Below are positions 7,393 through 64,000 of a DNA stretch of 64,000 nt, piece by piece; within the stretch, counting starts at the first letter, position 1; every line of letters starts with the position of its first letter. The position numbers and the translations under genes were made by a program. The stretch spans positions 248,001-312,000 of the forward strand of contig JAOTOM010005104.1 in the NCBI GenBank assembly GCA_034440615.1, in the 5' to 3' direction. Origin of the DNA: Ashinkailepas kermadecensis. Its lineage: Eukaryota; Arthropoda; Thecostraca; Neolepadidae. The notes under the pieces are model-generated. The model was not told the DNA's origin, did not search any database, and was given only the letters and a program-made list of their open reading frames with translations.

Positions 7393-7512
7393 TCTGCCCC
7401 CTTGATCTACTGCTACCCCTATTTGCTGACTGTGAGGTTCTATTGCCTATGCTGTCACTATTGACATATCCCTGAGATGGCAATGCCAATTCTTCCCTCC
7501 CCACCCCATTAT

Positions 7513-24400: not shown

Positions 24401-24420
24401 GGATGACGGCCACTTGGCTG

Positions 24421-33330: not shown

Positions 33331-33399
33331 GTTCCAAGATTGTCTGAATAGCTTAGTGTGGTGGATAGCGTCCGTGCTGAGCCTAATTGTGATTGGGTA

Positions 33400-43481: not shown

Positions 43482-43671
43482 GTGATCAACCAGGATTGGT
43501 TTTATGATGGATGTTTAATGCTTGCCATCGTGTGTGCACTGACATGAAGACGTCGGAGAAAAATGAAAATAAATCCGACGAAGATGAACTTCCATCAGTC
43601 AAATTCACCAATTGGGATCAAGTTATTTTACTGTTTTCCATCGTGGCGTACATTTTCAATAAGATAATCGG
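43482..43671 (+). CDS. XKR gene exon 1 of those seen (start codon exon)
   Basis: Acceptor 'cctttgttctag' precedes 43482, so a non-coding exon must lie upstream. A TGA in frame at 43505-43507 puts the start downstream of it, at Met 43511 or Met 43544. A short upstream ATG (43504) opens only four codons. After a hydrophilic, acidic/basic N-terminus comes 'WDQVILLFSIVAYIFNKII', a membrane segment. The donor is 'gtaagt' at 43672, phase 1. No minisatellite touches this exon. Confidence 0.8.
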
Positions 43672-46600
43672 TAAGTGCGTCAGGCGTATAAGGCGCCATC
43701 GGGAGCGGTGAACGTGTGAGGTGAGAGGTAGGCAGTGGGGCTGCCCTGCTGTAGGCACGTGATCGGGCACCATGCCGCTCCAGGGAGCCGGGGGCCGCGG
43801 TAGCTCAGTTGGTAGTGCGTCGGACTCCTGATCGCAGGATTGTGGGTTCGAATCTCACAGCCGACGGAATTTACCGAGTCCACCCGCGACCAATCGGCGT
43901 GAGAGGTTGGCGACGTTATATAACCTAGCAGTTGAATGCGTCGTAAAAGAACCCAAGGTTCTTCTTCTTCCAGGGAGCCGACCGACCGAAGCTGCGCGCT
44001 CTCGACAGCCCGTGGAAGCATGTGCCTTGTTGCGTCCAATTTGATTGCAGAAGTGCAGGCACTTCAGAAATAAGTAAAGGTCCTCGACAATTCAACTTGG
44101 TGCATTGAACTCCGACGCGCATGCTCCGTATTCGGCCGACCAGCTCCATTGCGGAAGTGGTGTCTCCAATTTCGTCTGGCCGACATTGCATGCCAGCCGA
44201 CACACAGGCTTCGCATACAAAAACAAAAAACCTGATGCATCCGAAACTGGCTGCAATATTGCCGAAATCCGGCTCATCTGCGGAATATGGTGCATGTATC
44301 TTAATAGCCCTCGCCCGTACAGCGGGAGGAGGTGATGCGGACCCCCCCCCCCCCCCATGTTTCTTGTCACCACGGAAATAACGCGACACGTTGGTAAGCC
44401 GCCGCTCCGTGTATCGCCTCCGCCTGGTAAGCCCCGTGTATAAGGCATCCTTTGCTTACTGTGTGATATTTTAAACGTTGTGGATGTCATTATTTGACGA
44501 TTTTCGTCAGACTTTCTTCTCTTCATCGTGAATCCAGGGTCATTGCTCACAGGGACGGCGTGAGTAATTTGCTCCTCGCGACATGCATCTGTAAAGTGTT
44601 TTCTTCTAAAAACGTCGTTAAATTCTTCATTGAGCAGTGTTCTGCTTGTTCACTTGTGCGGCGATGGTTATTTGTGCCATATCTCATGATTTCGCTTGTT
44701 TTGTTAAGAGCAGAGGGAGCCATCATGCCCAGTTTTCGACAGTCTGTTAGGAAGCTTAGCCGCCAGTTTATATTGTATTTGAAAGTTGCCATCTCCAGTC
44801 AGCGACCATACCCAGGTAGCTGAAGTTGCCGTCGAAAACATGGAGAAAAACGGACATCCTCGTACAAACGCTGACGTCTCTTTCTCTTATGACACATCGT
44901 GTTGAGATAGATCTGCTGAGCTACATGGCCTATGCAGTCAATGCGCCCTGAAGCCCCCCCCGAATAGCCCTGCTGGTAGGCTACCCGACCGCCGTGTGAG
45001 GTTGTCTTCGCACGCGAGCCTGGAGACTCGGCCACTGTCCAGTCAGAGCGGCCGTACGCGCCTCTGATTCGGCGCACCACCGCCGTCGCGCTGTTGGCGC
45101 CAAAATGCACGGCTGCCCGCCGGTGGTCCTGCGCTTCGCTCGCGAAAACGTTCGCGATCGACATCTGTCCTTCCATGAGACGTTGATGGCCCACGATACG
45201 ACGATTGTTTTTTTTCATCTTGGTTCATTTTTACTCATTTCTTTTTGTACTTTCTTTTTGTACTTGGAGGAGGGTGGACGATATGTGGCGCGATGGAGCG
45301 GCGGCCATGCTGACGTGAACACTACGGCACGCTGTTCTCAGCACACCGCCATGCCGTCTTTGTCGATGGGATCACTCGCAACAGCGCGTGGTGGTGTGAC
45401 GTCACACAGCCTGGCCGTACGGCTTCCACTGCTGTCCCTGTTTCAGACGTGGTGCTGATCCACACGTACCTGAGCTCGGGCGACCTCAGCTGGGGTCTGC
45501 TCACCATCCTGGTGGTGGTGATGCCCCAGGCGGTGATCCAGGTCATCTCGTACCGGTGGCACGTGCACGACGGCGAGGCCAACACCAGTCTGCTGGTGAT
45601 TCACTGGTGCCAGCTGGGACTGTTCCTCCGGTGAGGCGCACCTCCGGGGTGCCGTCCCAGGCTGGCTGGTGGCACACTTCGGCTTGGCACCGCAACAGGC
45701 GTGGGTGATGTTGTAAACATGGCCCGTCTGAGCCTATGAAGGGAAAATACTATATGAAGAGAGGATAGAGACTGAGACCACCTAATCAGTGTTACACCCT
45801 GAGTTCTAAAGAAGCTATTTGCCCCCATTGTGTTGCCATGACCCATGTTTTCAGGATGTGATATATCGTCCTTGATGAACCAAGATTTTACCCCCACAAA
45901 TGACTATTTGAAGGACATACCGTTTTAGTCTCCCTCTAATCATTGTTATGGGCACAAAATGACCTTGCTGTCGACGTGCCCCTAAACAGCAATCCACCAC
46001 CACCACCATGTTTTCAGGATCACATTCCCGAAAGAAGGTACTGAATCCACTGCCATTCGCACGCGTTTTCATTTCCCGGCGACGTGCTGCGTCCACATTT
46101 CACCGGTTGAGATTTTGCAGACCCAATGCGCACTCCATCGAAGTGTTTCGGAGACTCGTGTGTAGGAGTAAAGCTGTTGATTTTGCTGTCGAAGTGACTG
46201 TCATGAAGCTGACTGAGCACCCTGCCGGTCAGGTTATAGACATTGGTAGGGAATGAGGAAGGCTTTTAGATTGTGGACTTGATGAGCGCAAAATATGTTC
46301 AAAGCCAATATCTTCCAAGATGGCTGGGCAGTGAGCGGGCATTGTGTGTTTAGTTTGGTGCTCGGCTGGGAGGTGAAATATACACTGACCACCGATATTG
46401 AAATATAATGTGTCCATCACAGAATAAGAGCAAAGTTCACACAGCTGCGTGCTGACAAATAACACCGACGCGTTCCGATCGCATTTTAATCTTAAGATAG
46501 CATCGGTATATTTTTGTCCCAACTGCCATGGCCCATAGAACAGGTGTCGCTACGTTCCCCGTGTCTAACGCGCTCTCCAGAGTGGCTGGAGGCGCTCCTC

Positions 46601-49600
46601 CGTGTGGCAGGAGCCACTCTGACGCCGTCCTCCGGTGCCATTGCAGGCTGGTCACCCAGTTCTCCAACGGCCGTCGCTGGCGCCGCTCCGGGTCGCGGCA
46701 TGACTCCATGGTCAGTGTAGAGCAGACGCGGTCCCCAGACGCTGACAGGTATACCACGTGTGTGGGCGCCACGACTCCATGGTCAGTGTAGAGCAGACGC
46801 GGCCCCCAGACGCTGACAGGTATACCACGTGTGTGGGCGCCACGACTCCATGGTCAGTGTAGAGCAGACGCGGCCCCCAGACGCCGACAGGTATACCACG
46901 TGTGTGGGCGCCACGACTCCATGGTCAGTGTAGAGCAGACGCGGCCCCCAGACGCTGACAGGTATACCACGTATGTGGGCGCCACGACTCCATGGTCAGT
47001 GTAGAGCAGACGCGGCCCCCAGACGCTGACAGGTATACCACGTGTGTGGGCGCCACGACTCCATGGTCAGTGTAGAGCAGACGCGGCCCCCAGACGCTGA
47101 CAGGTATACCACGTGTGTGGGCGCCACGACTCCATGGTCAGTGTAGAGCAGACGCGGCCCCCAGACGCTGACAGGTATACCACGTGTGTGGGCGCCACGA
47201 CTCCATGGTCAGTGTAGAGCAGACGCGGCCCCCAGACGCTGACAGGTATACCACGTGTGTGTGTGGGGGGGGGGTGTTACGGTGGTGGCCGGCACACGCG
47301 TCGGCGGGTGGTGGCGTCCGGGGGGACTCAGGTGGGCTGTGTCCCGGGAATATCAGGCAGACCGTGTGAGACGAAGCTTCGGGTAGACTCAGTCCCGGGC
47401 AGACAGAGTACCGGATTATGGGCGCAAAATGACCAACGCAGTCGACGCGCCCTAAAGCACAACTCCACCACCACCCGGATTATTTGTGTCTCGGATAAAC
47501 TGTGTCCAGGTAGACGGAGTCCCCTGTAGACGGAGTCCCCGGTAGACGGAGCCCCGGGTAGACGGAGTCCGTGTGGACAGAGTTCCGGGTAAGCGGTGTC
47601 CCTGGCAGACGGCGTCGAGACTCGGGTGAGTCGCGGGTGGTTGGAACGCACTGGGTGTCTGTCCGCACATGCACCTGTCCAGTGCATGTGCACTGGACAG
47701 GTGTGTCTGCTGCCGTTGCGTGTTGTTGCCGTTGCACCACCTAGTCCAGTTGTCAGCGTGTCCTCGTCTGGCTGTCCGTCACGTGCTGTGAGGCGCATGG
47801 AGCCGGGGTGGGTGGGGTGCCGCCGTCCCACTCGTCAGTCCGGCGGACCGCCACGGTGGTCTGCCGGCCTCGGTCGTCACCAGTGACGGGAACAGTGACG
47901 TGGCCGTCAGGTGTGCCTGCGAGAGAGCAGTGACAGTCTGCTGCTGATAGTGACGTGGCCGTCAGTGGCACCTGCGGGAGAGCAGTGACGTCGGCCTGCT
48001 GCTGACACTGACGCGGCCGTCAGGTGTACCTACAGGAGAGCAGTGACGCCAGTCTGCTGCTGTCACGGGTACCTGCAGGAGAGCAGTGACGTCGGTCTGC
48101 TGCTGACACTGACGTCAGTCTGCTGCTGACAGTGACGTGGCCGTCAGGTGTACCTGCAGGAGAGCAGTGATGTCAGTCTGCTGCAGCTCTTCCTCAGCTA
48201 CATGGAGGCGGCGCCGCAGCTGCTGCTGCAGATGTACATCACGTCATCCAGAGACGGCTGGCAGATTGTGCAGGGTCAGTGGCCGGGCTGGGGTCAGTGG
48301 CCGGGATGGGATCGGTGGCCAGACTGGGGTCGGTGGCCGGGCTGGGGTCGGTGGCAGGGCTGGGGTCAATGACAGGGCTGTGGCTAGTGGCGAGGCTGTA
48401 TAGTAGCCGGGCTGGGGTCGGTGACTGGACTGGGGTAGGTGGCTAGGCTTGGGTCGGTGGCTAGACTGGGGTCGGTGGCCAGACGGGGGTCGGTGGCTAG
48501 ACTGGGGTCGGTGGCCAGGCTGGGGTCAGTGACCAGGCTGTGGTTAGTGGCCGGGGTCGGGTCGGTGGCAGGGCTGGGGTCAATGACGGCTGGGCTGGGG
48601 TAGGTGGCTGAGCTGGGGTCAGTGGCTGGACTGGGGTCGGTGGTCGGGCTGGGGTCAATGACAGGGCTGGGGTCAATGACAGGGCTGGGGTCACGTGGCC
48701 GGGCTGGGTCAGTGACTGGGCTGGGGTCGGTGGCCGGGCTGGGGTCAATGACAGGGCTGGGCTGGGTCGGTGGCCGGGGTGGGGTCAATGACAGGGCTGG
48801 GCTGGGGTAGGTGGCCGGGGTGGGCTCAGTGGCTGGACTGGGGTCGGTGGCCGGGCTGGGGTCAATGACAGGGCTGGGGTCACGTGGCCGGGCTGGGGTC
48901 AATGACAGGGCTGGGGTCACGTGGCCGGGCTGGGTCAGTGACTGGGCTGGGGTTGGGTAGCCGGGACTCGACGCTACAGCGTGTGTGACCGAGCCACGTG
49001 TTGCAGCGGCGAGCGCCGTGTTCTCTCTGGCCAGGCTGGGGTCAGTGACAGGGCTGGGGTCGGTGGTCGGGCTGGGGTTGGGTAGCCGGGACTCGACGCT
49101 ACAGCGTGTGTGACCGAGCCACGTGTTGCAGCGGCGAGCGCCGTGTTCTCTCTGGCCAGGCTGGGGTCGGTAGCCGGGACTCGACGCTACAGCGTGTGTG
49201 ACCGAGCCACGTGTTGCAGCGGCGAGCGCCGTGTTCTCTCTGACTGGGCTGGGGTCGGTGGCCGGGCTGGGTCAGTGGCCGGGCTGGGGTTGGGTAGCCG
49301 GGACTCGACGCTACAGCGTGTGTGACCGAGCCACGTGTTGCAGCGGCGAGCGCCGTGTTCTCTCTGGCCGGGCTGGGTCAGTGACTGGGCTGGGGTTGGG
49401 TAGCCGGGACTCGACGCTACAGCGTGTGTGACCGAGCCACGTGTTGCAGCGGCGAGCGCCGTGTTCTCTCTGACTGGGCTGGGGTCAGTGACTGGGCTGG
49501 GGTCGGTGGTCGGGCTGGGGTTGGGTAGCCGGGACTCGACGCTACAGCGTGTGTGACCGAGCCACGTGTTGCAGCGGCGAGCGCCGTGTTCTCTCTGACT

Positions 49601-52600
49601 GGGCTGGGGTCAGTGACTGGGCTGGGGTCGGTGGTCGGGCTGGGGTTGGGTAGCCGGGACTCGACGCTACAGCGTGTGTGACCGAGCCACGTGTTGCAGC
49701 GGCGAGCGCCGTGTTCTCTCTGGCCAGGCTGGGGTCACGTGGTCGGGCTGGGGTCGGTAGCCGGGACTCGACGCTACAGCGTGTGTGACCGAGCCACGTG
49801 TTGCAGCGGCGAGCGCCGTGTTCTCTCTGGCCAGGCTGGGTCAGTGACTGGGCTGTGGTTGGTGGCCGGGCTGGGGTCGGGTAGCCGGGACTCGACGCTA
49901 CAGCGTGTGTGACCGAGCCACGTGTTGCAGCGGCGAGCGCCGTGTTTTCTGGCCGGGCTGGGGTCAGTGACTGGGCTGGGGTTGGGTAGCCGGGACTCGA
50001 CGCTACAGCGTGTGTGACCGAGCCACGTGTTGCAGCGGCGAGCGCCGTGTTCTCTCTGGCCAGGCTGGGGTCACGTGGTCGGGCTGGGGTCGGGTAGCCG
50101 GGACTCGACGCTACAGCGTGTGTGACCGAGCCACGTGTTGCAGCGGCGAGCGCCGTGTTCTCTCTGCTCTCGCTGGCCTGGAGTAACGCCTCCTACGCCA
50201 AGTGGATGCGCAAGTCTCGCGGCGACAAGCTGCCGCTGGGCTGGACTGCTGTCACGCTGCAGGTAGGCGACCGCTTCAAACCGCATCTGAGATGAAAGCT
50301 GCCCACTCGAAATTAAAAGAATTAGTGTATTTCTGAGTACGCAAGTTTGGATTTGAATTGGCTGTTAATTGGAGTGAATTTTGTGAATCATTGGCAAAAA
50401 ATCAAGCCTTCCGTGCTTTCTACGTATGACGGTCTGGGCTTGCCGGGTCGCTGATCTCAATTGTTTTCGTGTGTACGTGGGAATATTTGACGCATTACCG
50501 TGACGTTTTCGTGTGTACGTGGGGATGTTTTACTGCACTGCCGTGACGTTTTCGTGTGTACGTGGGGATGTTTGACTGCACTGCCGTGACGTTTTCGTGT
50601 GTACGTGGGGATGTTTGACGGCACTGCCGTGACGTTTTCGTGTGTACGTGGGGGTGTTTGACTGCACTGCCGTGACGTTTTCGTGTGTACGTGGGGATGT
50701 TTGACGGCACTGCCGTGACGTTTTCGTGTGTACGTGGGGGTGTTTGACGGCACTGCCGTGACGTTTTCGTGTGTACGTGGGGTGTTTGACTGCACTGCCG
50801 TGACGTTTGAATGCTTCGTGACAAGGAGGCGTTGATTAACACACAAATAAATCATTTTTCTCGTCATGAAAAGTTCTAGTTTTAATACTAATTCGCGTAA
50901 CACTCTATCGTCCACTCACATTGAATTACAGCTTTCCATTGGAGTCAACTATGTCCTGGACCTCATAGCTAAGATATTTTTTTTATGTAGTATAGCCCAC
51001 TGAGGACATCAATCGTAGTGTCGGGTGACATCTTGTGCCTTGCCCGCCCATCTCTCTGATGTCGCTGTCCTGGCAGCTGGTGTGACGGCTGTGTATGACA
51101 TCTGCCCGCCCCGGCAGCTGGTGTGGCGGCTGTGTATGAGATCTGCCCGCCCCGGCAGCTGGTGTGGCGGCTGTGTATGACATCTGCCTGCCCCGACAGC
51201 TGGTGTGGCGGCTGTGTATGACATCTGCCCGCCCTGGCAGCTGATGTGGCGGCTGTGTATGACATCTGCCCGCCCTGGCAGCTGATGTGGCGGCTGTGTA
51301 TGACATCTGCCCGCCCCGGCAGCTGGTGTGGCGGCTGTGTATGACATCTGCCCGCCCTGGCAGCTGGTGTGGCGGCTGTGTATGACATCTGCCCGCCCTG
51401 GCAGCTGGTGTGGCGGCTGTGTATGACATCTGCCCGCCCTGGCAGCTGATATGGTGGCTGTGTATGACATCTGCTCGTCCCGGCAGCTGGTGTGGCGGCT
51501 GTGTATGACATCTGCCCGTCCCGGCAGCTGGTGTGGCGGCTGTGTATGACATCTTCCCCCCCTGCCCCCTAGCAGCTGGTGTGGCGGCTGTGTATGACAT
51601 CTGCCCGCCCTGGCAGCTGGTGTGGCGGCTGTGTATGACATCTGCCCGCCCTGGCAGCTGATATGGTGGCTGTGTATGACATCTGCCCGCCCCGGCAGCT
51701 GGTGTGGCGGCTGTGTATGACATCTGCCCGCCCCGGCAGCTGGTGTGGCGGCTGTGTATGACATCTGCCCGCGCCGACAGCTGGTGTGGCGGCTGTGTAT
51801 GACATCTGCCCGCCCCGACAGCTGGTGTGGTGGCTGTGTATGACATCTGCCTGCCCACGCAGCTGGTGTGGGCGGCTGTGTATGACATCTGCCCGCCCTG
51901 GCAGCTGGTGTGGCGGCTGCGTATGACATCTGCCCGCCCCGCCAGCTGGTGTGGTGACTGTGTATGACATCTGCCCGCCCCGAAAGCTGGTGTGGCGGCT
52001 GTGTATGACATCTTCCCGCTCCGGCAGCTGGTGTGGCGGCTGTGTATGACATCTGCCCGCCCTGGCAGCTGGTGTGGCGGCTGTGTATGACATCTGCCCG
52101 CCCCGACAGCTGGTGTGGCGGCTGTGTATGACATCTGCCCGCCCCGGCAGCTGGTGTGGCGGCTGCGTATGACATCTGCCCGCCCCGGCAGCTGGTGTGG
52201 TGACTGTGTATGACATCTGCCCGCCCCGACAGCTGGTGTGGCGGCTGTGTATGACATCTGCCCGCTCCGGCAGCTGGTGTGGCGGCTGTGTATGACATCT
52301 GCCCGCCCTGGCAGCTGGTGTGGCAGCTGTGTATGACATCTGCCCGCCCCGGCAGCTGATGTGGTGGCTGTGTATGACATCTGCCCGCCCCGGCAGCTGG
52401 TGTGGCGGCTGTGTATGACATCTGCCCGCCTCGGCAGCTGGTGTGGCAGCTGTGTATGACATCTGCCCGCCCCGGCAGCTGGTGTGGCGGCTGTGTATGC
52501 TGCTGGCGCGCCTGTCGGCTCTGCTGGCGTTCTCGCTGCTCTACTCCGGCTGGGTGCTGGTCGCGCTGGCCGCCCGCTGGCTGCTGATGACTGGTTGGGT

Positions 52601-55600
52601 GGTCTCCCAGCGCACCGACCTCTTCCCATCGCGCTGGGAGGAGCGCATCTTCAACGCTGTCGTCGGCGTTGTGTACTGCTTTTCATTCTTCAACGTGAAG
52701 GTGGGATCGAGGCGGCCGTGCCACTGGCTGGTGTGGTGTAAGGTGGGACCGAGGCGCTGGCTGGTGTAGTGTAAGGTGGGACCGAGGCGCTGGCTGGTGT
52801 AGTGTAAGGTGGGACCGTGCCGCTGGCTGGTGTGGCGTAAGGTGGGCTGGTGTGGTGTAAGATGGGGCCGAGGCGCTGGCTGGTGTGGTGTAGGGTGGGC
52901 TGGTGTGATGTAAGGTGGGACCATGCCGCTGGCTGGTGTGATGTAAGGTGGGAACGAGGCGCTGGCTGGTGTGGTGTTAAGGTGGGCTGGTGTGGTGTAA
53001 GGTGGGCTGGTGTAGTGTAAGATGGGTTGGTGTGGTGTAAGGTGTGAACGAGGCGCTGGCTGGTGTGGTGTTAAGGTGGGCTGGTGTAGTGTAAGATGGG
53101 TTGGTGTGATGTAAGATGGGTTGGTGTGGTGTAAGGTGGGCTGGTGTAGTGTAAGGTGGGCTGGTGTGGTGTAAGGTGGGCTGGTGTGGTGTAAGGTGGG
53201 CTGGTGTGGTGTAAGGTGGGCTGGTGTGGTGTAAGGTGGGACCGAGGCGGCCGTGCCGCCGGCAGGTGTGGTGCAAGTTGTGCAGACCGCGGAGCGGCCG
53301 CCGACTGGTGTGGCGCTGTAGCAGCATGGCTGCGGATTTGCATGTCACTGGTCGGCCGGAGCAGCTCCAGAGGCATGCTGTGGTGTGACGCGGTCCGGTC
53401 GGCAGCAGGTCGGAGCGGCATGTGGGTGTTCGTTGCCTGGCTAAACTGGTCGGTGTGGGAGACGCGCTGCACCGTAATGCCACTCCCGTCGGCGAAGAAA
53501 CGCGCTAGCCGTCTGGCTATGGGTACCTATGGTTACTGGTTCTTGTGGTGCTTGTCCTGTGACACTTCTGCCTCAGCATGTCTCATTACTCGCAATCATA
53601 CCCGGGCGTAAAGAGCGGAAAACTATGCTGATAAACTGAGTGGCAAGAGAAGTATCGATTTCCGTTGAATACACGATAGCGTTATCAAAGCAAACCTTGT
53701 CAACAGATCATGGCAGGATCACAGCCCGGCGAGAAGAGTGCGCGTAGAAAATGCAACCTGTGGGCATGCTGTAAATCGTGCATCGTATGCGTGTACACCT
53801 CTACTTTGCGAACGCGAACCATCCTGCCTGGCATGTTTCAGCCTGAATGCGACCGCGGCATGCGACGTCTGTATCGTCTCGCTGTCGTCAGCTAACACGG
53901 ACGGCGCGACTGCTCGGCCGCCCGCTGGGGCAGCCTTGGCCACGTGTCTCGGCCGCCCGCTGGGGCAGCCTTGGCCACGTGTCTCGGCCGCCCGCTGGGG
54001 CAGCCTTGGCCACGTGTCTCGGCCGCCCGCTGGGGCAGCCTTGGCCACGTGTCTCGGCCGCCCGCTGGGGCAGCCTTGGCCACGTGTCTCGGCCGCCCGC
54101 TGGGGCAGCCTTGGCCACGTGTCTCGGCCGCCCGCTGGGGCAGCCTTGGCCACGTGTCTCGGCCGCCCTCTGGGGCAGCCTTGGCCACGTGTCTCGGCCG
54201 CCCTCTGGGGCAGCCTTGGCCACGTGTCTCGGCCGCCCGCTGGGGCAGCCTTGGCCGCGTGTCTCGGCCGCCCGCTGGGGCAGCCTTGGCCACGTGTCTC
54301 GGCCGCCCTCTGGGGCAGCCTTGGCCACGTGTCTCGGCCGCCCGCTGGGGCAGCCTTGGCCACGTGTCTCGGCCGCCCGCTGGGGCAGCCTTGGCCACGT
54401 GTCTCGGCCGCCCGCTGGGGCGGCCTTGGCCACGTGTCTCGGCCGCCCTCTGGGGCAGCCTTGGCCACGTGTCTCGGCCGCCCGCTGGGGCAGCCTTGGC
54501 CACGTGTCTCGGCTGCCCGCTGGGGCAGCCTTGGCCACGTGTCTCGGCCGCCCGCTGGGGCAGCCTTGGCCACGTGTCTCGGCCGCCCGCTGGGGCAGCC
54601 TTGGCCACGTGTCTCGGCCGCCCGCTGGGGCAGCCTTGGCCACGTGTCTCGGCCGCCCGCTGGGGCAGCCTTGGCCACGTGTCTCGGCCGCCCGCTGGGG
54701 CAGCCTTGGCCTTATCTGAGCCGCCTGCCGGCCACCGGCGCTGTCCCCAAGCCATAGTCGATCGGCGCCGCTGCTGCTGCTGCTGCAAAGCCGGAGCCGT
54801 CCACCGACACTTCCGACCTGCTAGCTTCCTCTCCCGTGACAAACATGCTCGGTAACCATAAACGTGGTCTGTAGTCCTGCACGTTGGTCCGTATTGATGG
54901 CATGTGCTGGTGAAGGCTGTGATCAACCAACCGGTGTACCTGCTGGCGTACCGAAACCAAAGGCTGTCTCACGTCTTAACGAGGGACGAGTGTCCGTCGG
55001 CCGTCAGCTGAATGTGACATGCTGCGATTATGGGTGTTTTGGAAGGTGCGCTGCTCGTGAGGAGAGTTCGTTTTGTGTCGTGCGACACGACAACGAGCGA
55101 GATCAGTCACACCGCTGGTCAGTCTACAGCTGCAGACTGACTGGACCGGCGTCCCAGGCTCCTGGAGATGAAACGTAACTCTTATCTGGATTTGTTGTTG
55201 AAGTCATTCACCCTATTTTCCAAGAGGGCAACAAAATCACAAAATTACACCAATCAACCAATTCGTAGATAAGCAGTCACTTCACGCTGACTTTGTAAAC
55301 CAAAAGAAGGATATTGAAGCAGCCAAGACATGCATGCTCACCAATATTGCTGTGCCAACTGCAGTGGGTACCTGGTGCCGGTACCTGGGCGCCTGGATTG
55401 GGGATCCTACCTGGGCTGAACGACCTGCCCACCACAAACCTGGGCTGAACGTCCTACTCACCACATACCTGGGCTGAACGTCCTGAACGCCATATACCTG
55501 GGCTGAACGTCCTGCCCACCACATACCTGGGCTGAACGTCCTGCCCACCACATATCTGGGCTGAACGTCATGCCCACCACATACCTGGGCTGACCGTCCT

Positions 55601-58121
55601 GAATGCCACATACCTGGGCTGAACGTCATGAACACCACATACCTGGGCTGAACGTCCTGCCCACCACATTCCTAGGCTGAACGACCTGCCCACAACATAC
55701 CTGGGCTGAACGCCATGAACACCACATACCTGGGCTGAACGTCATGAACACTACATACCTGGGCTGAACGTCATGAACACCACATACCTGGGCTGTACGT
55801 CATGAACACCACATACCTGGGCTGAACGTCATGAACACCACATAATTGGGCTGAACGTCCTGAATCGCAGGTGTTCAGTAAGAAATGGTCATCTCTGCCG
55901 TTGAATGTCGTGTGGCATTGTTATAGCCCGACGCTTCCTGCCTACAGAGATTCCAGATGCTTCAACTATTCTAAACCATTCGGAAAATCACATGATAACC
56001 TTTTTTTTAGCGGGTATTGGAAACACGCATGTGCAATGCGTATATTCCATATTTCGTACTCGTCATCAACATATTTATTTATTTATTTATATATATGTAT
56101 TTTTTTTTTAGTAGTAGTCTCAGAAGCTTGCGAAGCGAGCAGCATAGGGCAGATAAGCCTGCGGCAGCCGGCGCATCTGACCTAGTGTGTATAGTATATT
56201 GCTATATGAGTATGCGTGTACATCGCATGTGTGTGTACAGATTCGTCAGTTGTGCGAGAGTGCACGTATGTAAATATGGATTGTGTGAGCCTGCACAGGT
56301 GTTATGGTTTGATGCTCGTATATATTCTGTGTCCATACACACTATACTAGTATGTGTTTGTATGTGCCTGTGCATGTTTGTACCAGCTAACCATAGCTCC
56401 TTCCATGATTATTTTGATTCTGGCGCCACTTGTGCGCTCGTGTTGAGTTGGCGGCCATCTCAGCTGATGGCGCGGTGACTTCATTGCTTTTTCTTCTTCT
56501 TAACGCGCTCAGAAAGTGGCCGAAATCCGTCCACTCCTCTGGTCTAGGGGTTAGATGCTCGTCTCGCAATCGAAAGATTGTGGGTTCGAATCTCACCTGT
56601 CGCTACTCTTCGCCCGCGACCAATCGGCGTGAGAGATTGGCGACGCTATATGACTCAACGGTCGACGTGTCGTAAAACCAATAACCAACCAACCATCACA
56701 TAAGCTGCCGGGAATATTGTAATGCAATCTTGTGACTTCGTTACAAACTGATAAGCGCATCTTGCGCAACAAAACGAATTCGAAATCCGTATGTACATAA
56801 TGAACTGCAGCGGTGCAAAGTCGACCGAACGGCTGCCAGCTGAGCGTTCAGAGTCGCAAAGGTTTCGTCGGTGCGGTAGTGCGGCGGCGCGGTGTGGCAG
56901 CCGATTTCGACCTCATTTAACCCCCAAGGCATCGACCTATGGTCATGGGATTTATACTGAAGCGTGTTCACTACAGTCGTACTCTACGGTCCAAATGTAG
57001 TGCTTCCGGCTTCAGCAGTTTCCGAGATCCTATGGGGGGGGGGCGAATCCGCCGCCGGACCAGACGTGTTGTCTGTGGTGGTGTTGTCACCAGCCGTACC
57101 AGACGTGTGGTGTTGTCTGTGGTGGTGTTGTCACCAGCCGGACCAGACGTGTGGTGTTGTCACCAGCTGGACCAGACGTGTGGTGTTGTCACCAGCCGCA
57201 CCAGACGTGTGGTGTTGTCACCAGCCGGACCAGACGTGTGGTGTTGTCTGTGGTGGTGTCACCAGCCGTACCAGACGTGTGGTGTTGTCACCAGCCGGAC
57301 CAGATGTGTGGTGTTGTCACCAGCTGGACCAGACGTGTGGTGTTGTCACCAGCCGGACCAGACGTATGGTGTTGTCTGTGGTGGTGTTGTCACCAGCCGG
57401 ACCAGACGTGTGGTGTTGCCTGTGATGGTGTTGTCACCAGCCGGACCAGACGTGTGGTGTTGTCACCAGCCGGACCAGACGTGTGGTGTTGTCTGTGGTG
57501 GTGTTGTCACCAGCCGGACCAGACGTGTGGTGGTGTCGTCACCAGCCGGACCAGACGTGTGGTGTTGTCTGTGGTGGTGTTGTCACCAGCCGGACCAGAC
57601 TGTGGTGGTGTTGTCACCAGCCGGACCAGACGTGTGGTGTTGTCTGTGGTGGTGTTGTCACCAGCCGGACCAGACGTGTGGTGTTGTCTGTGGTGGTGTT
57701 GTCACCAGCCGGACCAGATGTGTGGTGTTGTCACCAGCCGGACCAGATGTGTGGTGTTGTCACCGGCCAGACCAGATGTGTGGTGCTGTCTGTGGTGGTG
57801 TTGTCACCAGCCGGACCAGATGTGTGGTGCTGTCTGTGGTGGTGTTGTCACCAGCCGGACCAGATGTGTGGTGCTGTCTGTGGTGGTGTTGTCACCAGCC
57901 GGACCAGACGTATGGTGTTGTCCGTGGTGGTGTTGTCACCAGCCAGACGAGCCTTGTGTCGCTGCACCAGGAGACGCCGGCGCGCTGGCGAATGCTGGCC
58001 TTCTACGTGCTCACGCACACGGAGAACACGGCCATGGCAGTGGTGTTCTTCTGTTGGCGGCTCCCCTCCGACTGGCTCTACACGGCGCTGCTGGTCTGCA
58101 TTCCAGTCGGCGCTGTGCTGG
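43511..58121 (+). CDS. XK-related (XKR/CED-8 family) membrane protein, 3' partial
   Basis: XKR proteins are multi-pass membrane proteins. Some (XKR8, CED-8) expose phosphatidylserine as lipid scramblases during apoptosis. Seven coding exons join in phase: 43511-43671 (exon from 43482), 45447-45630, 46647-46710, 48160-48274, 50144-50262, 52479-52700 and 57947-58121. All junctions are GT-AG. Family signatures are 'LFLSYMEAAPQLLLQMYI' (like LLETFLESAPQL), 'SLLSLAWSNASY', 'WEERIFNAVVGVVYCFSFF' (like WEE.LFNMVVG..Y.F..F) and 'TENTAMAVVFFCWRLP'. At least seven hydrophobic segments are visible. About 347 codons are present, against roughly 400-650 in relatives, so the C-terminus (with the caspase site in some members) is missing. 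Introns 3 to 7 are filled with minisatellites seeded at the splice sites. The paralogue is not resolved. Confidence 0.9.
43791..43968 (+). mobile_element. tRNA-headed SINE, head type 2, perfect 12-bp TSD
   Basis: Lies in intron 1 of the XKR gene. The head 'gggccgcggtagctcagttgg' type is tRNA-Lys-like ('tagctcagttggtag' A box, 'gggttcgaatc' B box) and differs from head type 1. The body 'cgcgaccaatcggcgtgaga' with 'gttggcgacgttata' is the same as in the type 1 SINEs. The tail is 'cgtcgtaaaagaaccc' plus a 'ttcttcttctt' end. Perfect direct repeats 'tccagggagccg' lie at 43779-43790 and 43969-43980. Confidence 0.95.
44918..44965 (+). mobile_element. possible further copy of the micro-retroposon tail
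   Basis: 'acatggcctatgcagtcaat' followed by 'gcgccctgaagcccc' matches the tail family, but no clear direct repeats were found. Confidence 0.45.
45447..45630 (+). CDS. XKR gene exon 2
   Basis: Acceptor 'ctgtccctgtttcag', donor 'gtgagg' at 45631. Encodes 'DVVLIHTYLSSGDLSWGLL', 'TILVVVMPQAVIQVISYRW' and 'LLVIHWCQLGLFLR', matching the second and third membrane segments of XKR proteins ('D...D...Y...G...W..LT...+..P...VQ..S+RW'). It starts in phase 1 and ends in phase 2. No minisatellite lies at either border. Confidence 0.9.
45824..46053 (+). mobile_element. truncated CR1 3'-end fragment split by a SINE-like insert
   Basis: Outside the insert, 'cccccattgtgttgccatga' and 'atcacattcccgaaagaagg' plus 'actgaatccactgcc' match the 3' UTR unit of the CR1-like LINE at 4320-4400 ('cccattgtgctaccatagac', 'atcacatcccgaaggaagg', 'gaatccactgc'). 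It lies in XKR intron 2. Confidence 0.65.
45859..46004 (+). mobile_element. 146-bp SINE-like insert with 14-bp TSD
   Basis: Ends with the shared tail 'gggcacaaaatgaccttgct', 'gtcgacgtgcccctaaac' and a (cca)n end. Direct repeats 'catgttttcaggat' lie at about 45845-45858 and 46006-46019. It is nested in the CR1 3' fragment. It is the longest member of the tail family here and shows sequence upstream of the tail, without an obvious tRNA head. Confidence 0.7.
46647..46710 (+). CDS. XKR gene exon 3 (64 bases)
   Basis: Acceptor 'gtgccattgcag', donor 'gtcagt' at 46711. Encodes 'LVTQFSNGRRWRRSGSRHDS' plus Met after completing an Arg codon, a basic loop between membrane segments. Its last nine bases and the donor form the edge of the 71-bp array that follows. 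Confidence 0.8.
46711..47265 (+). repeat. 71-bp minisatellite carrying the exon 3 donor
   Basis: About eight nearly identical 71-base units. Each unit contains 'gactccatg' followed by 'gtcagtgtagagcag', which is the end of exon 3 with its donor, then 'cccccagacgctgacagg' and 'tataccacgtgtgtgggcgc'. So seven further copies of exon end plus donor stand directly downstream of the true donor. The unit also contains 'gacaggtatac', another donor-like word. Confidence 0.95.
47330..47640 (+). repeat. 18-20 bp minisatellite in XKR intron 3
   Basis: Units of 'gtagacggagtccccg' with variants such as 'cagacagagtaccgg'. It is interrupted by the 55-bp insert at 47420-47474. No splice-site word of a neighbouring exon is part of this unit. 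Confidence 0.8.
47420..47474 (+). mobile_element. 55-bp micro-retroposon with 9-bp TSD
   Basis: Insert 'gggcgcaaaatgaccaacgc', 'agtcgacgcgccctaaagc', then a (cca)n-like end. Direct repeats 'ccggattat' lie at 47411-47419 and 47475-47483. It is inserted in a minisatellite in XKR intron 3. Confidence 0.8.
47672..47703. other. perfect 15-bp inverted repeat with 2-base spacer
   Basis: 'cacctgtccagtgca', spacer 'tg', 'tgcactggacaggtg'. It lies in intron 3 between the donor-bearing and acceptor-bearing arrays. Confidence 0.85.
47885..48159 (+). repeat. minisatellite carrying the exon 4 acceptor
   Basis: Four decayed units (about 45-60 bases) of 'gtgacgtggccgtcaggtgt', 'acctgcag', 'gagagcagtgacgtcagtct' and 'gctgctgac' precede the true exon. 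The part after 'acctgcag' copies the first 22 or so bases of exon 4 ('gagagcagtgatgtcagtct'). Two of the four decoys keep the AG (at about 48033 and 48076). The others read 'cctgcga' and 'cctgcgg'. Confidence 0.85.
48160..48274 (+). CDS. XKR gene exon 4
   Basis: Acceptor 'gtgtacctgcag', donor 'gtcagt' at 48275. Encodes 'ESSDVSLLQLFLSYMEAAPQ' and 'LLLQMYITSSRDGWQIVQ', the most conserved XKR segment (LL..F.E.APQL.LQ..I). It starts in phase 0 and ends in phase 1. Minisatellites touch both borders. Confidence 0.9.
48275..48955 (+). repeat. 18-bp minisatellite seeded at the exon 4 donor
   Basis: Some 36 short units of 'ggtcagtggccgggctgg' and variants ('ggtcaatgacagggctgg'). The array begins inside the donor itself: exon end 'cagg' followed by 'gtcagtggccgggctggg'. 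Units that keep 'ggtcagtg' or 'gggtcagtgac' repeat the donor word. Confidence 0.9.
48956..50143 (+). repeat. higher-order repeat with ten decoy exon 5 acceptors
   Basis: Each higher-order unit is a block of about 70 bases ('gccgggactcgacgctacag', 'cgtgtgtgaccgagccacgt', 'gttgcag' then 'cggcgagcgccgtgttctct') plus one to three 18-bp 'gggctggggtcagtgact' units. The acceptor AG ends at 49006, 49131, 49219, 49343, 49449, 49574, 49699, 49806, 49930 and 50034; the true site ends at 50143. Most spacings fall near 88, 106 or 124, that is 70 plus 1, 2 or 3 times 18. Each decoy has a perfect copy of acceptor and first 18 exon bases. Confidence 0.95.
50144..50262 (+). CDS. XKR gene exon 5
   Basis: Acceptor 'gccacgtgttgcag', donor 'gtaggc' at 50263. 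After completing an Ala codon it encodes 'ASAVFSLLSLAWSNASYAKW' and 'MRKSRGDKLPLGWTAVTLQ', matching the XKR segment with SL.W....Y. It ends in phase 0. Its donor is the only one between exons 3 and 6 without a directly attached array. Confidence 0.9.
50460..50815 (+). repeat. 43-bp minisatellite in XKR intron 5
   Basis: About eight units of 'ttttcgtgtgtacgtgggga' with 'tgtttgactgcactgccgtg'. No exon-derived sequence is recognised in the unit. Confidence 0.9.
51060..52478 (+). repeat. 41-bp minisatellite with about 34 decoy exon 6 acceptors
   Basis: Each 41-base unit is 'ctggtgtggcggctgtgtat' plus 'g' (the first 21 bases of exon 6) followed by 'acatctgcccgccccggcag' (the acceptor). The last unit runs straight into the true exon. 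Most units keep the terminal 'gcag'. Because 41 is not a multiple of three and the unit has no stop on the minus strand, minus-strand frames of up to 548 codons arise and are not genes. Confidence 0.95.
52479..52700 (+). CDS. XKR gene exon 6
   Basis: Acceptor 'gcccgccccggcag', donor 'gtggga' at 52701 (exon end 'aacgtgaag'). It encodes 'LVWRLCMLLARLSALLAFSL', 'LYSGWVLVALAARWLLMTGW' and 'WEERIFNAVVGVVYCFSFFN' plus Val-Lys, closely following the XKR block with WEE.LFN.VVG..Y...+FNVK. 74 codons, phase 0 at both ends. Both borders lie in splice-site-bearing arrays. Confidence 0.9.
52701..53265 (+). repeat. minisatellite carrying the exon 6 donor
   Basis: Units of 33 or about 20 bases: 'gtgggaccgaggcgctggct' plus 'ggtgtagtgtaag', and the shorter 'gtgggctggtgtggtgtaag'. 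The join 'taag' followed by 'gtgggac' repeats the true border 'gaag' followed by 'gtggga'. About 20 such donor-like joins follow the true one. Confidence 0.9.
53910..54715 (+). repeat. 35-bp minisatellite, about 23 copies, in XKR intron 6
   Basis: Period exactly 35: 'ggccgcccgctggggcagcc' plus 'ttggccacgtgtctc'. Very low divergence. Long open frames occur on both strands and in several frames (up to about 340 codons) because the unit lacks stops, so these are rejected as genes. Confidence 0.95.
54716..55395. other. intron 6 sequence without recognisable feature
   Basis: A short (ctg)n run near 54770 and otherwise unique-looking sequence. No exon fitting the XKR reading frame was found. Confidence 0.4.
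55400..55870 (+). repeat. 29-bp minisatellite in XKR intron 6
   Basis: About 16 units of 'cctgggctgaacgtcctgcc' plus 'caccacata'. No splice-site word of a neighbouring exon was recognised. Confidence 0.9.
55871..57044. other. intron 6 sequence with one SINE
   Basis: AT-rich part with (ttta)n at 56070-56090, then unique sequence. The SINE is listed separately. No further exon was identified. Confidence 0.4.
56531..56694 (+). mobile_element. tRNA-headed SINE, head type 1
   Basis: Head 'ctctggtctaggggttagat' with B box 'gggttcgaatctc', body 'cgcgaccaatcggcgtgaga' and tail 'aataaccaaccaacc', as in 24421-24582. Direct repeats were not evident, so it may be older or 5'-truncated by a few bases. 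Confidence 0.85.
57045..57946 (+). repeat. minisatellite carrying the exon 7 acceptor
   Basis: About two dozen units of 'gttgtcaccagccggaccag' plus 'acgtgtggtgttgtc', some with an inserted 'tgtggtggt'. The true border is 'gtcaccagccag' followed by 'acgagccttgtg'. The units read 'gtcaccagccggaccag' followed by 'acgtgtggtg', so the pyrimidine/AG context and the first exon bases are repeated in each unit. Confidence 0.9.
57947..58121 (+). CDS. XKR gene exon 7 (last in window)
   Basis: The phase-0 acceptor is the second AG of 'caccagccag'; using the first AG would break the frame. Encodes 'TSLVSLHQETPARWRMLAFY' (corresponding to the '..G.TR.RM..YY' stretch of relatives), 'VLTHTENTAMAVVFFCWRLP' and 'WLYTALLVCIPVGAVLG'. 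Donor 'gtaagc' at 58122, phase 1. No exon to follow was found up to 64000. Confidence 0.85.
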
Positions 58122-58139
58122 GTAAGCGGCCAGACTGGT

Positions 58140-61100
58140 GCCCTGGTGTACTGTGGACACCGGTGTACTGTGGACACTGGTGTACCCTGGTCCCCGGGGC
58201 GCCCTGGTGTACTGTGGAGGCTGGTGTACCCCGGGGGCGCTCTGGTGTACTGTGGACACTGGTGTACCCCGGGGCGCTCTGGTGTACTGTGGACACTGGT
58301 GTACCCCGGGGCGCTCTGGTGTACTGTGGACACTGGTGTACCCCGGGGCGCTCTGGTGTACTGTGGACACTGGTGTACCCTGGGGGCGCTCTGGTGTACT
58401 GTGGACACTGGTGTACCCTGGGGGCGCTCTGGTGTACTGTGAACACTGGTGTACCCGGGGCGCTCTGGTGTACTGTGGACACTGGTGTACCCCGGGGCGC
58501 CCTGGTGTACTGTGGACACTGGTGTACCCTGGGGGCGCTCTGGTGTACTGTGAACACTGGTGTACCCGGGGAGCTCTGGTGTACTGTGGACACTGGTGTA
58601 CCCCGGGGCGCTCTGGTATACTGTGGACACTGGTGTACTGTGGACACTGGTGTGCCCCGGGGCGCCCTGGTGTACTGTGGACACTGGTGTACCCCGGGGC
58701 GCCCTGGTGTACTGTGGACACTGGTGTGCCCCGGGGCGCCCTGGTGTACTGTGGACACTGGTGTACCCTGGGGGCGCCCTGGTATACACTGGTGTACCCT
58801 GGGGCGCTCTGGTGTACTGTGGACACTGGTGTACCCTGGGGCGCCCTGGTGTACTGTGGACATGGGTGTACCCCGGGGCGCTCTGGTGTACTGTGGACAC
58901 TGGTGTACCCTGGGGCACCCTGGTGTACTGTGGACACTGGTGTACCCTGGGGCGCTCTGGTGTACTGTGGACACTGGTGTACCCCGGGGCGCTCTGGTGT
59001 ACTGTGGACACTGGTGTATCCCGGGGGCGTCCTGGTGTACTGTGGACACTGGTGTACCCCGGGGCGCCCTGGTGTACTGTGGACACTGGTGTACCCCGGG
59101 GCGCCCTGGTGTACTGTGGACACTGGTGTACCCTGGGGGCGCTCTGGTGTACTGTGGACACTGGTGTACCCTGGGGGCGCTCTGGTGTACTGTGGACACT
59201 GGTGTACCCCGGGGCGCCCTGGTGTACTGTGGACACTGGTGTACCCTGGGGGCGCTCTGGTGTACTGTGGACACTGGTGTACCCTGGGGGCGCTCTGGTG
59301 TACTGTGGACACTGGTGTACCCGGGGCGCTCTGGTGTACTGTGGACACTGGTGTACCCCGGGGCGCCCTGGTGTACTGTGGAGACTGGTGTACCCCGGGG
59401 CGCTCTGGTGTACTGTGGACACTGGTGTACCCCGGGGCGCTCTGGTGTACTGTGGACATGGGTGTATCCCGGGGGGGCATGGTGTACTGTGGACACTGGT
59501 GTATCCCGGGGGCGCTCTGGTGTACTGTGGACACCGGTGTACCCTGGGGGCGCTCTGTATGGGGCGCTCTGGTGTACTGTGGACACTGGTGTACCCCGGG
59601 GCGCTCTGGTGTACTGTGGACACTGTGTACTGTGACACTGGTGTACCCCGGGGCGCTCTGGTGTACTGTGGACACTGGTGTACCCCGGGGCGCTCTGGTG
59701 TACTGTGGACACTGGTGTACCCTGGGGGCGCTCTGGTGTACTGTGGACACTGGTGTACCCGGGGCGCTCTGGTGTACTGTGGACACTGGTGTACCCCGGG
59801 GAGCCCTGGTGTACTGTGGACACTGGTGTACCCTGGGGGCACTCTGGTGTACTGTGGACACTGGTGTACCCCGGGGCGATCTGGTGTACTGTGGACACTG
59901 GTGTACTGTGGACACTGGTGTACCCCGGGGCGCTCTGGTGTACTGTGGACACTGGTGTACCCCGGGGCGCCCCGGTGTACTGTGGACACTGGTGTACCCC
60001 GGGGCGCCCTGGTGTACTGTGGACACTGGTGTACCCTGGGGGCGCTCTGGCGTACTGTGGACACTGGTGTACCCTGGGGGCGCTCTGGTGTACTGTGGAC
60101 ACTGGTGTACCCGGGGCGCTCTGGTGTACTGTGGACACTGGTGTACCCCGGGGCGCCCTGGTGTACTGTGGAGACTGGTGTACCCCGGGGCGCTCTGGTG
60201 TACTGTGGACACTGGTGTACCCGGAGGCGCTCTGGTGTACTATGGACACTGGTGTACCCCGGGGCGCTCTGGTGTACTGTGGACACTGGTGTATCCCGGG
60301 GGCGTCCTGGTGTACTGTGGACACTGGTGTACCCCGGGGCACCCTGGTGTACTGTGGACACTGGTGTACCCCGGGGCGCCCTGGTGTACTGTGGAGACTG
60401 GTGTACCCCGGGGCGTCCTGTTGTACTGTGGAGACTGGTGTACCCCGGGGCGCCCTGGTGTACTGTGGACACTGGTGTACCCTGGGGGCGCTCTGGTGTA
60501 CTGTGGACACTGGTGTATCCCGGGGGCGCTCTGGTGTACTGTGGACACTGGTGTACCCCGGGGCGCTCTGGTGTACTGTGGACACTGGTGTATCCCGGGG
60601 GCGCTCTGGTGTACTGTGGACACTGGTGTACCCTGGGGGCGCTCTGGTGTACTGTGGACACTGGTGTACCCCGGGGCGCCCTGGTGTACTGTGGAGACTG
60701 GTGTACCCCGGGGCGCCCTGGTGTACTGTGGAGACTGGTGTACCCCGGGGGCGCCCTGGTATACACTGGTGTACCCTGGGGCGCTCTGGTGTACTGTGGA
60801 CACTGGTGTACCCTGGGGCGCCCTGGTGTACTGTGGACACTGGTGTACCCCGGGGCGCTCTGGTGTACTGTGGACACTGGTGTACCCTGGGGCACCCTGG
60901 TGTACTGTGGACACTGGTGTACCCTGGGGCGCTCTGGTGTACTGTGGACACTGGTGTACCCCGGGGCGCTCTGGTGTACTGTGGACACTGGTGTATCCCG
61001 GGGGCGCTCTGGTGTACTGTGGACACTGGTGTACCCCGGGGCACCCTGGTGTACTGTGGACACTGGTGTACCCCGGGGCGCCCTGGTGTACTGTGGACAC

Positions 61101-62755
61101 TGGTGTACCCTGGGGGCGCTCTGGTGTACTGTGGACACTGGTGTATCCTGGGGGCGCTCTGGTGTACTGTGGACACTGGTGTACCCCGGGGCACCCTGGT
61201 GTACTGTGGACACTGGTGTATCCCGGGGGCGTCCTGGTGTACTGTGGACACTGGTGTACCCTGGGGGCGCTCTGGTGTACTGTGGACACTGGTGTACCCC
61301 GGGGGCGCTCTGGTGTACTGTGGACACTGGTGTATCCCGGGGCGCTCTGGTGTACTGTGGACACTGGTGTATCCCGGGGCGCTCTGGTGCACTGTGGACA
61401 CTGGTGTACCCCGGGGCGCTCTGGTGTACTGTGGACACTGGTGCATCCCGGGGCGCTCTGGTGTACTGTGGACACTGGTGTACCCTGGGGGCGCCCTGGT
61501 GTAATGTGGACACTGGTGTACCCCGGGGCGCTCTGGTGTACTGTGGACACTGGTGTACCCCGGGGCGCTCTGGTGTACTGTGGACACTGTTGGTGTACCC
61601 CGGGGCGCCCTGGTGTACTGTGGACACTGGTGTACCCTGGGGGCGCTCTGGTGTACTGTGGACACTGGTGTATCCCGGGGGCGCTCTGGTGTACTGTGGA
61701 CACTGGTGCATCCCGGGGGGGCATGGTGTACTGTGGACACTGGTGTATTCCGGGAGCGTCCTGGTGTACTGTGGACACTGGTGTACCCTGGGGGCGCTCT
61801 GGTGTACTGTGGACACTGGTGTACCCTGAGGGCGCTCTGGTGTACTGTGGGCACTGGTGTACCCCGGGGCGCTCTGGTGTACTGTGGACACTGGTGTATC
61901 CCGGGGGGGCATGGTGTACCGTGGACACTGGTGTATCCCGGGGGCGTCCTGGTGTACTGTGGACACTGGTGTACCATGGGGGCGCTCTGGTGTACTGTGG
62001 ACACTGGTGTACCCTGAGGGCGCTCTGGTGTACTGTGGACACTGGTGTACCCCGGGGCACCCTGGTGTACTGTGGACACTGGTGTATCCCGGGGGCGTCC
62101 TGGTGTACCCTGGGGGGCGCTCTGGTGTACTGTGGACACTGGTGTACCCCGGGGGCGCTCTGGTGTACTGTGGACACTGGTGTATCCCGGGGCGCTCTGG
62201 TGTACTGTGGACACTGGTGTATCCTGGGGCGCTCTGGTGCACTGTGGACACTGGTGTACCCCGGGGCGCTCTGGTGTACTGTGGACACTGGTGTACCCCG
62301 GGGCGCTCTGGTGTACTGTGGACACTGGTGTACCCCGGGGCGCCCTGGTGTACTGTGGACACTGGTGTACCCTGGGGGCGCTCTGGTGTACTGTGGACAC
62401 TGGTGTATCCCGGGGCGCTCTGGTGTACTGTGGACACTGGTGCATCCCGGGGGGCATGGTGTACTGTGGACACTGGTGTATCCCGGGAGCGTCCTGGTGT
62501 ACTGTGGACACTGGTGTGCCCTGGGGGCGCTCTGGTGTACTGTGGACACTGGTGTACCCTGGGGGCGCTCTGGTGTACTGTGGACACTGGTGTACCCCGG
62601 GGGCGCTCTGGTGTACTGTGGACACTGGTGTATCCCGGGGGGGCATGGTGTACCGTGGACACTGGTGTATCCCGGGGGCGTCCTGGTGTACTGTGGACAC
62701 TGGTGTACCCTGGGGGCGCCCTGTTGTACCGTGGACACTGGTGTACCCGAGTGCA
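58140..62755 (+). repeat. 4.6-kb minisatellite of 37-38 bp units (about 120 copies)
   Basis: Units 'ctctggtgtactgtggacac' plus 'tggtgtaccccggggcg' or 'tggtgtaccctgggggcg'. It starts about 20 bases after the exon 7 donor. Few stops in any frame give spurious open frames of more than 1500 codons on both strands. The donor itself is not clearly part of the unit, unlike in the other arrays. Confidence 0.95.
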
Positions 62756-63300
62756 CTCCGACACAATGTTAAAATAATGCGTTATCATTAGGTGTGAGAT
62801 GTCGAAACGAGTACAGCAGGATGTCGAAATCGCCATGAAAATAATGACGTTTGAAATACCTCGGTCCTTAAAACCAGGTTTTGAAATGATTCCATGCATA
62901 TAGCTATCCATTTTGCGTGTTCTGAGAGGTACCTAATTTTGGGATACCGATATCAACTATAACGATACAAGAGCCTATGCTATTAACTGGTATTGTATAA
63001 CATGGCACATCATAGGTAATCACTTTACCTAGAATTGCACTACGGGTTGATCGTTATCACGATCCTGGATCCGCCATGATGAGCATGAGCATGATACTTA
63101 TCAACGGGACGCTGTTAGAAACGAGGCATAGAGACTTCACAAGCATGCACCAAGAAGCACGATGACGATACTTAATTGGGCAGAATGTCGACGCGCAATG
63201 TTCGGTAAATTGTATATTCCACCCTACTTCACGAATAATTTGTTACTGCTTTGACCTCAACACACCCAATGAAAACGCATTATTTTAGCTCAGTACAGCC
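62756..63300. other. no recognisable feature
   Basis: AT-rich unique-looking intronic or downstream DNA. No XKR exon was found here. Confidence 0.4.
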
Positions 63301-64000
63301 AGATCTGCGATGCTGCCCTACTACTGCGGGCGCGGCTGTGAGACTCCTCTACTACTGTAGGCACGGCTGTACTGCTGCTCCACTGCCGCAGACACGGCTG
63401 TGATGCTGCCAGGGGCGTCGCCCCACCCCCTGCCGTGAGACTGCCCCCCCCCCCCCCCACCCCGACATTTGAAGAGGCCCCTACCCGGAAATGCATAGGA
63501 AACAAAGGTGAGCAAGGAGGCAAATGGGACAGAAGATCATGCTGCCCAAGACTGGCAACGAGACCCCCGAAAAATTCAGATCAGGTCCCTATAAGAGACG
63601 TAGAACGGAAATGTGCAGGAGGCCCCCAGGACGAAAAGGATGTCATCGAGACGGGCAAGGAGCCACCCAGGTTAGATAAGAAGGCTTACGATGCGTCATG
63701 GAAGAGGAGGCCCCTACAATAGAAAATGAGGGCATAGGATAGGAGAGATGTCCCCTGGCGCACGAGGAGGCCCCAAAATGGGTCAGAACGTCTCCAGGCA
63801 CGGCTGTGATGCTGCTCTACTACCACAGGCACGGCTGTGATGCTGCCCTGCTACTGCAGACACGGCTGTGATGCTGCTCTACTGCTGCAGACACGGCTGT
63901 GATGCTGCTCTACTGCTGCAGGCACGGCTGTGGTGCTGTTCTCCTACCACAGGCACGGCTGTGATGTTACTCTCCTACCACAGGCACGGCTGTGATGCTG
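63301..64000 (+). repeat. about 31-bp minisatellite split by a foreign segment
   Basis: Units 'ggcacggctgtgatgctgct' plus 'ctactaccaca' occur at 63303-63405 and 63797-64000. Between them lies a segment starting 'caggggcgtcgccccacccc' with poly-C and then 'gaggcccc' words, which looks like an insertion or a second decayed repeat. The array runs off the window. Confidence 0.8.

Follow-up and report, generated by a model that had tools for sequence, protein, structure and literature searches.

Minisatellites that copy splice borders in an XKR gene of the barnacle Ashinkailepas kermadecensis: a probable cluster of 'mirages'

Introduction

How do the splice junctions of a single gene come to lie within tandem arrays whose units copy the junction itself? 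The question is raised by a stretch of 64,000 nucleotides of the barnacle A. kermadecensis (GenBank assembly GCA_034440615.1, contig JAOTOM010005104.1, positions 248,001 to 312,000 of the forward strand), referred to below as the window. Positions are counted from its first base, and the gene under study and its arrays all lie on the + strand. The original prediction placed seven splice sites of five consecutive exons of an XK-related (XKR) gene at the edges of tandem arrays. The gene model, the arrays and the number of border-spanning arrays expected by chance were analysed here, and the arrays were compared with published cases. Since the window was chosen for its border-array pattern, all P values given are post hoc.

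Results

The limits of the exons were set by tblastn with the XKR proteins of Pollicipes and Amphibalanus. Exon 1 (43544..43670; MKTSEKNEN...FNKII), found with both relatives, holds the start codon, and its frame continues into exon 2 (45447..45630). It is followed by exon 3 (46647..46710), exon 4 (48148..48274; VYLQESSDVS...GWQIVQ), exon 5 (50144..50262), exon 6 (52479..52700) and exon 7 (57971..58121; ETPARWRM...VGAVLG). Exons 1 to 7 join into a single open frame from Met, exon 8 lying beyond the end of the window, and GT or AG was present at 13 of 13 borders in the window (7 donors and 6 acceptors). The acceptor of exon 4 was placed at cgtcag/GTGTAC; another at 48160 was discarded, as the two barnacle relatives read VYLQ or LYLQ there. 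For exon 7 the relatives set the acceptor at 57970/57971 (gctgcaccag/GAGACG; NVK/ETPARW), and a site at 57946/57947, on the edge of an array, was discarded because it adds eight residues that are absent from the Pollicipes XKR protein and also from the XKR4 and XKR8 chains.

The spliced frame of this provisional gene model matched Pfam PF09815 (XK-related family) with an E value of 5.2e-74, over profile positions 19-332 of 337. When 5.8 billion proteins were searched with the same provisional model, there were 7739 candidates and, at E ≤0.001, two matches, both from barnacles: the closest was an XKR6-like protein of Pollicipes pollicipes (75% identity, query coverage 100%), followed by a protein of Amphibalanus amphitrite (67% identity, query coverage 53%). 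The Amphibalanus gene model ends in FLQ-VSELS, which suggests that it reads through the donor at the end of exon 5 and that intron 5 may be common to both species.

A second multi-exon gene that could serve as a control was not found in the window when the listed reading frames were inspected by eye. A lone candidate coding exon (16108-16347; MKPPAMNSAG...ICNP) ends at a GT donor and had no Pfam match. On the - strand, a broken copy of a gene for ubiquitin carboxyl-terminal hydrolase (UCH/USP), apparently without introns, lies at 41275-42349 in at least two frames; two of its pieces match PF00443, and it is probably a retrocopy. Frames of LINE-type reverse transcriptase and endonuclease were recognized by eye on the - strand at 4506-7446 and 32755-33606, one piece of the latter matching PF14529. 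Copies of a tRNA-derived SINE were present at 24420 and 42288 (two called as tRNA-Val) and at about 56540-56690, the third lying within XKR intron 6 as judged by eye. Outside the gene, a 16-base array (20098-21615) flips its orientation near 20690 (CAAATGTACGTAAGCG / TACGTACATTTGCGCT) and forms a large inverted arrangement, and a GC-rich 100-base array (14388-14972; 5.8 copies, 97% matches) has GGTCAGTGGC in common with the 18-base unit at an XKR donor described below.

After overlapping TRF rows had been merged by the analyst, 13 arrays were counted in introns 3-7, six of which neither touch nor span any border. Weak rows with TRF scores of 51-56 (45238-45265, 46570-46620 and 56071-56106) were left out; the second is a 22-base repeat of 2.3 copies (score 56) whose end lies 26 bases upstream of the exon 3 acceptor. 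No array with a TRF score of ≥80 was present in introns 1 and 2, which held two weak rows only (score 56).

Copies of each border were sought in the adjacent intron, using 10 bases from each side and allowing ≤4 mismatches in 20. They were found at 4 of the 13 borders in the window, namely the exon 3 donor (7 copies) and the acceptors of exon 4 (3), exon 5 (10) and exon 6 (34); both ends of exon 2 were free of them. With live copies included, the splice signal (AG or GT) was kept in 35/35 copies at exon 6, 11/11 at exon 5 and 8/8 at exon 3, and it was kept in 3 of the 4 extra copies at exon 4. The copying of exon sequence was also measured with 14-mers. Near-copies (≤1 mismatch) in a flanking intron were found for 42 of 903 exon 14-mers (20 in exon 4, 11 in exon 5 and 11 in exon 6), and 40 of these 42 start no further than 26 bases into exon 4, 5 or 6. 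The other two, from the interior of exon 6, do not exceed chance (mean 1.2 and maximum 6 in 20 mononucleotide exon shuffles), and exon 3 yielded none because its copies differ from it by two bases.

The seven array-edge splice sites first proposed thus divide into four that are spanned (the exon 3 donor and the acceptors of exons 4, 5 and 6), two that are merely touched (the donors of exons 4 and 6) and one, the exon 7 acceptor, that lies 22 bases away from its array; an array at the exon 8 acceptor was absent from the earlier list. The original prediction had named no position for the exon 7 acceptor, and the discarded site at 57946/57947 is the one that agrees with it. The exon content of the units, given before as about 5-22 bases, was corrected to 16-37 at the spanned borders and 2-6 at the touched ones.

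The donor of exon 3 (ATG/gtcagtg) lies inside a 71-base array (46695..47261) of 8 copies including the live one. Its 7 extra copies carry the last 16 bases of the exon, 14 of them identical, and the match stops beyond. All 7 differ from the live exon at the same two positions, both of them synonymous (CGG/CGC and CAT/CAC), as expected if coding constraint acts on the live copy only. The acceptor of exon 4 is crossed by an imperfect array of about 58 bases (47892..48184; about 5 copies, counting the live one), in which a looser search raised the extra copies from 3 to 4, with up to about 37 exon bases, imperfectly matched. The live copy has GAT where 4 of 4 other copies have GAC. With 8 bases from each side, one of 5 matches to this acceptor falls within the array of exon 3, probably by chance.

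Intron 4 is bounded by arrays at both ends. An 18-base array starts at the exon 4 donor (48273..48953) and has 2 exon bases in common with it, as judged by eye; 2 intron copies of this donor were found with 8 bases from each side and 0 with 10. It is followed by a compound array (48954..50166), the boundary at 48954 being the analyst's choice, in which 11 copies of the exon 5 acceptor, including the live one, are interleaved with 18-base donor units. Each of the 10 extra copies carries 23 exon bases. By eye, hardly any differences are seen among the 11 acceptor units along about 70 bases, and none in the live core; the donor units lying between them vary. Of the 1869 bases of intron 4, 1858 match the intron's own end units, that is, the 18-base donor unit (≤5 edits in 18 allowed) or the acceptor unit of about 72 bases; the 72-base pattern recovered 9 of the 10 upstream acceptor copies in this test. 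The non-acceptor part was covered to 99% by end units vs a mean of 50% in 5 shuffles, and the whole intron collapses to 106 bases. At the other end of exon 5, no array was found within 200 bases of the donor (CTGCAG/gtaggc).

The largest number of copies was found at the acceptor of exon 6, which is crossed by a 41-base array (51072..52499) of 35 copies, the live one among them; the unit contains 21 exon bases. For a test of substitutions, 3 of the 35 copies were left out (the first, whose left flank differs, and two with >8 mismatches). Among the remaining 32 copies there were 21 distinct units and 47 substitutions, none of them in the AG, which gives no sign of selection on the AG of these copies (P 0.086), and the live copy equals the consensus of the array. 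The most upstream copy (51072) has a different left flank, gatgtcgctgtcct, as seen by eye. This flank may be the original end of the intron, the array having been built between gatgtcgctgtcct and exon 6. If used, each of the five nearest upstream acceptors leads to a premature stop, so that strict neutrality of the array is not obvious; accurate choice of the site, or removal of faulty messages, would be needed.

The near-identity of the 11 exon 5 acceptor units over about 70 bases is what an assembly artefact, with repeats collapsed or mis-stacked, could leave behind. The exon 6 copies differ from one another by substitutions, however, and the donor units interleaved at exon 5 vary, and we consider such an artefact barely credible.

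Selection might instead have kept the arrays for a function, with repeated sites or runs of G aiding weak exons as decoys, intronic enhancers or recursive AG/GT sites. The retention of AG in all 35 exon 6 copies fits this explanation, as do the arrays at the donors of exons 4 and 6, which are strongly G-rich (skew 0.47 and 0.67), and the number of AGGT words in intron 3 (13, against 5.9 on average and at most 13 after shuffling). Against it, the conservation of AG is within chance, and AGGT was not enriched in introns 4-7 (3, 0, 22 and 7 vs shuffled means of 8.5, 9.0, 23.1 and 26.4). A functional origin is improbable on these counts.

The array at the exon 6 donor (AAG/gtggga) has units of 20-33 bases (52699..53240) with about 3-6 exon bases in common as judged by eye; its start was moved by eye from the TRF start at 52724, and 0 intron copies of the border were found with 8 or 10 bases from each side. 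Exon 7 has an array on either side. The upstream one, of 29/44 bases (57066..57948), stops 22 bases short of the acceptor, and the downstream one, of 37 bases (58147..62748), does not span a border and begins about 25 bases past the donor. The start of the latter was set by eye, at 58136 in the seeding model and at 58147 in the skew and border-distance tests (TRF start 58192). Arrays that arose within introns and grew until selection halted them at the exons, the border content of their units being incidental, would look like those touching the donors of exons 4 and 6 and like the two that end 22 and 25 bases from exon 7. Halted growth cannot account for the four borders whose units hold 16-37 exon bases in register with the live site, and we regard it as a very improbable source of the whole set.

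A further 31-base array (63297..64000) continues off the end of the window. Its unit consists of CAG and about 28 bases of exon 8 (GTAVMLLYYH), a stretch in phase with exon 7 that resembles GSAVMLLYYR of Pollicipes (tblastn E value 4; 8/9 residues). By eye, degenerate copies (63297-63409) are followed by an insertion of about 385 bases (63410-63794) and by recent copies from 63795. The acceptor of exon 8 would be a fifth border-spanning case, with the border placed from this resemblance and the live exon lying beyond the window.

The arrays had been described as unrelated in sequence, and this stood broadly; short GTG-rich words nevertheless recur. Exact words were shared by 12 of the 105 pairs formed by 15 units, two of which came from outside the gene, vs 5.25 pairs expected, the word length being one reached in ≤5% of mononucleotide shuffles.

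The number of spanning arrays expected by chance was estimated with a model in which founding units were placed at random and an array with ≥8 exon bases was counted as spanning; its outcome depends on the ancestral length of the introns. Seeding over the present unique lengths gave 0.68 spanning arrays, and P values of 0.003 for the four observed among 13 and of 0.0003 for five, with exon 8 included; when seeding was limited to introns 3-7 these became 0.005 and 0.0005. With five ancestral introns of 100-150 bases, 3.8-5.2 spanning arrays were expected and the observed count was ordinary. In a test of distance from which the window edge and intron 4 were excluded, 6 of 7 borders had an array no more than 30 bases away, against a null mean of 0.72, and 0 of 200,000 simulations reached this number. 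An earlier version, which took the window edge as a border and gave 7 of 8, had P 0.007 if unique sequence was once a fifth of today's and 0.29 if it was a tenth.

Such figures could reflect a targeting of borders, with duplications seeded there by a mutational process tied to splicing or transcription, for example through R-loops or through stalled replication where exon edges are rich in GC. The low P values from present unique lengths speak for it, and so do the GC content of exons 2-7 (59-70% vs 42-64% in the unique parts of introns 1-3 and 5-7) and the positive G skew of the coding strand in 10 of 13 arrays (only slight in those labelled A1 and A7). Targeting is not needed, however, if the five ancestral introns were 100-150 bases long, and the collapse of intron 4 to 106 bases counts on the same side, as do the six arrays away from borders and the lack of arrays scoring ≥80 in introns 1 and 2. 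We consider border targeting unlikely. Even so, the association with borders looks stronger than random placement, and simple tolerance combined with long ancestral introns does not predict it.

Discussion

The arrays of this working barnacle gene probably form a cluster of 'mirages', or minisatellites that began as tandem duplications across exon-intron borders. In the course of events that we propose, a tandem duplication would cross a border of the XKR gene, and the copy adjoining the intact exon would still be spliced correctly, the remaining copies being turned into intron. Such a duplication may be tolerated because the exon-proximal site survives; tolerance of this kind had been offered in the original prediction, and it appears to be the best-supported explanation here too. 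Unequal exchange, slippage or gene conversion would then amplify the units and lengthen the introns from their ends. Three elements of this account are inferred: splicing at the live site, near-neutrality of the copies and the way in which they were amplified.

The structure itself is already known, although the original prediction had found no named system to match it. Minisatellites that copy exon-intron borders have been published as 'mirages' in amphioxus, in Adh3 and the globin genes BflGb6 and BflGb9 (PMC3087553) and also in TnC and PGBD5 (PMC3902484), and RT-PCR suggested normal splicing (PMC3087553). There, mirages affect donors or acceptors, have units of 10-160 bases, keep AG or GT in many copies and have boundary copies that are not homogenised. 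The barnacle arrays likewise consist of tandem border copies and have the structure by which mirages are defined. They differ from the amphioxus cases in that four to five spanned and two touched borders occur in one gene, in the number of copies (up to 35) and in one intron derived almost wholly from its own ends. The barnacle set is unusual in its density and copy number.

Turri and colleagues reportedly described, in 1995, a minisatellite with multiple splice donors in human IFI6 (6-16). There as in the barnacle gene, a minisatellite supplies repeated donors. IFI6 differs in having a single minisatellite, whose copies are used as donors according to the title of that report, whereas the barnacle copies are putative sites.

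Two further published processes bear on such borders. In human segmental-duplication genes, internal tandem repeats occur at exon-intron boundaries, and 27 of 80 curated changes hit introns (PMC2812944). Expansion of a minisatellite at a border changes intron structure there as in the barnacle gene, but the human changes were read as new introns, whereas in the barnacle gene introns already in place seem to have been lengthened. Introns can also be gained when AGGT segments are tandemly duplicated in the genome (PMC3443670). That process, too, copies splice signals by tandem duplication; it makes new introns, whereas the position of XKR intron 5 looks common to Amphibalanus. No mirage of a barnacle or other arthropod was found among the literature matches listed, several of these lists giving the top 15 or 20 of many papers. 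The main text of one barnacle genome paper does not contain 'tandem repeat' (PMC8917513), and that of another contains neither 'tandem' nor 'minisatellite' (PMC8270832).

The barnacle XKR gene extends mirages from lancelets to an arthropod, with several of them within one gene. Exon 6 offers a natural test of how the spliceosome chooses among 35 near-identical acceptors, and the introns of this gene provide a concrete route for intron lengthening. A wider reading, which we put forward tentatively and hold to be possible rather than likely, is that in barnacles it is common for introns to expand from the splice borders that bound them, minisatellites being nucleated again and again by duplications across a border. 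If this were true, the lengthening of introns would be driven from their ends and would leave them packed with decoy splice sites.
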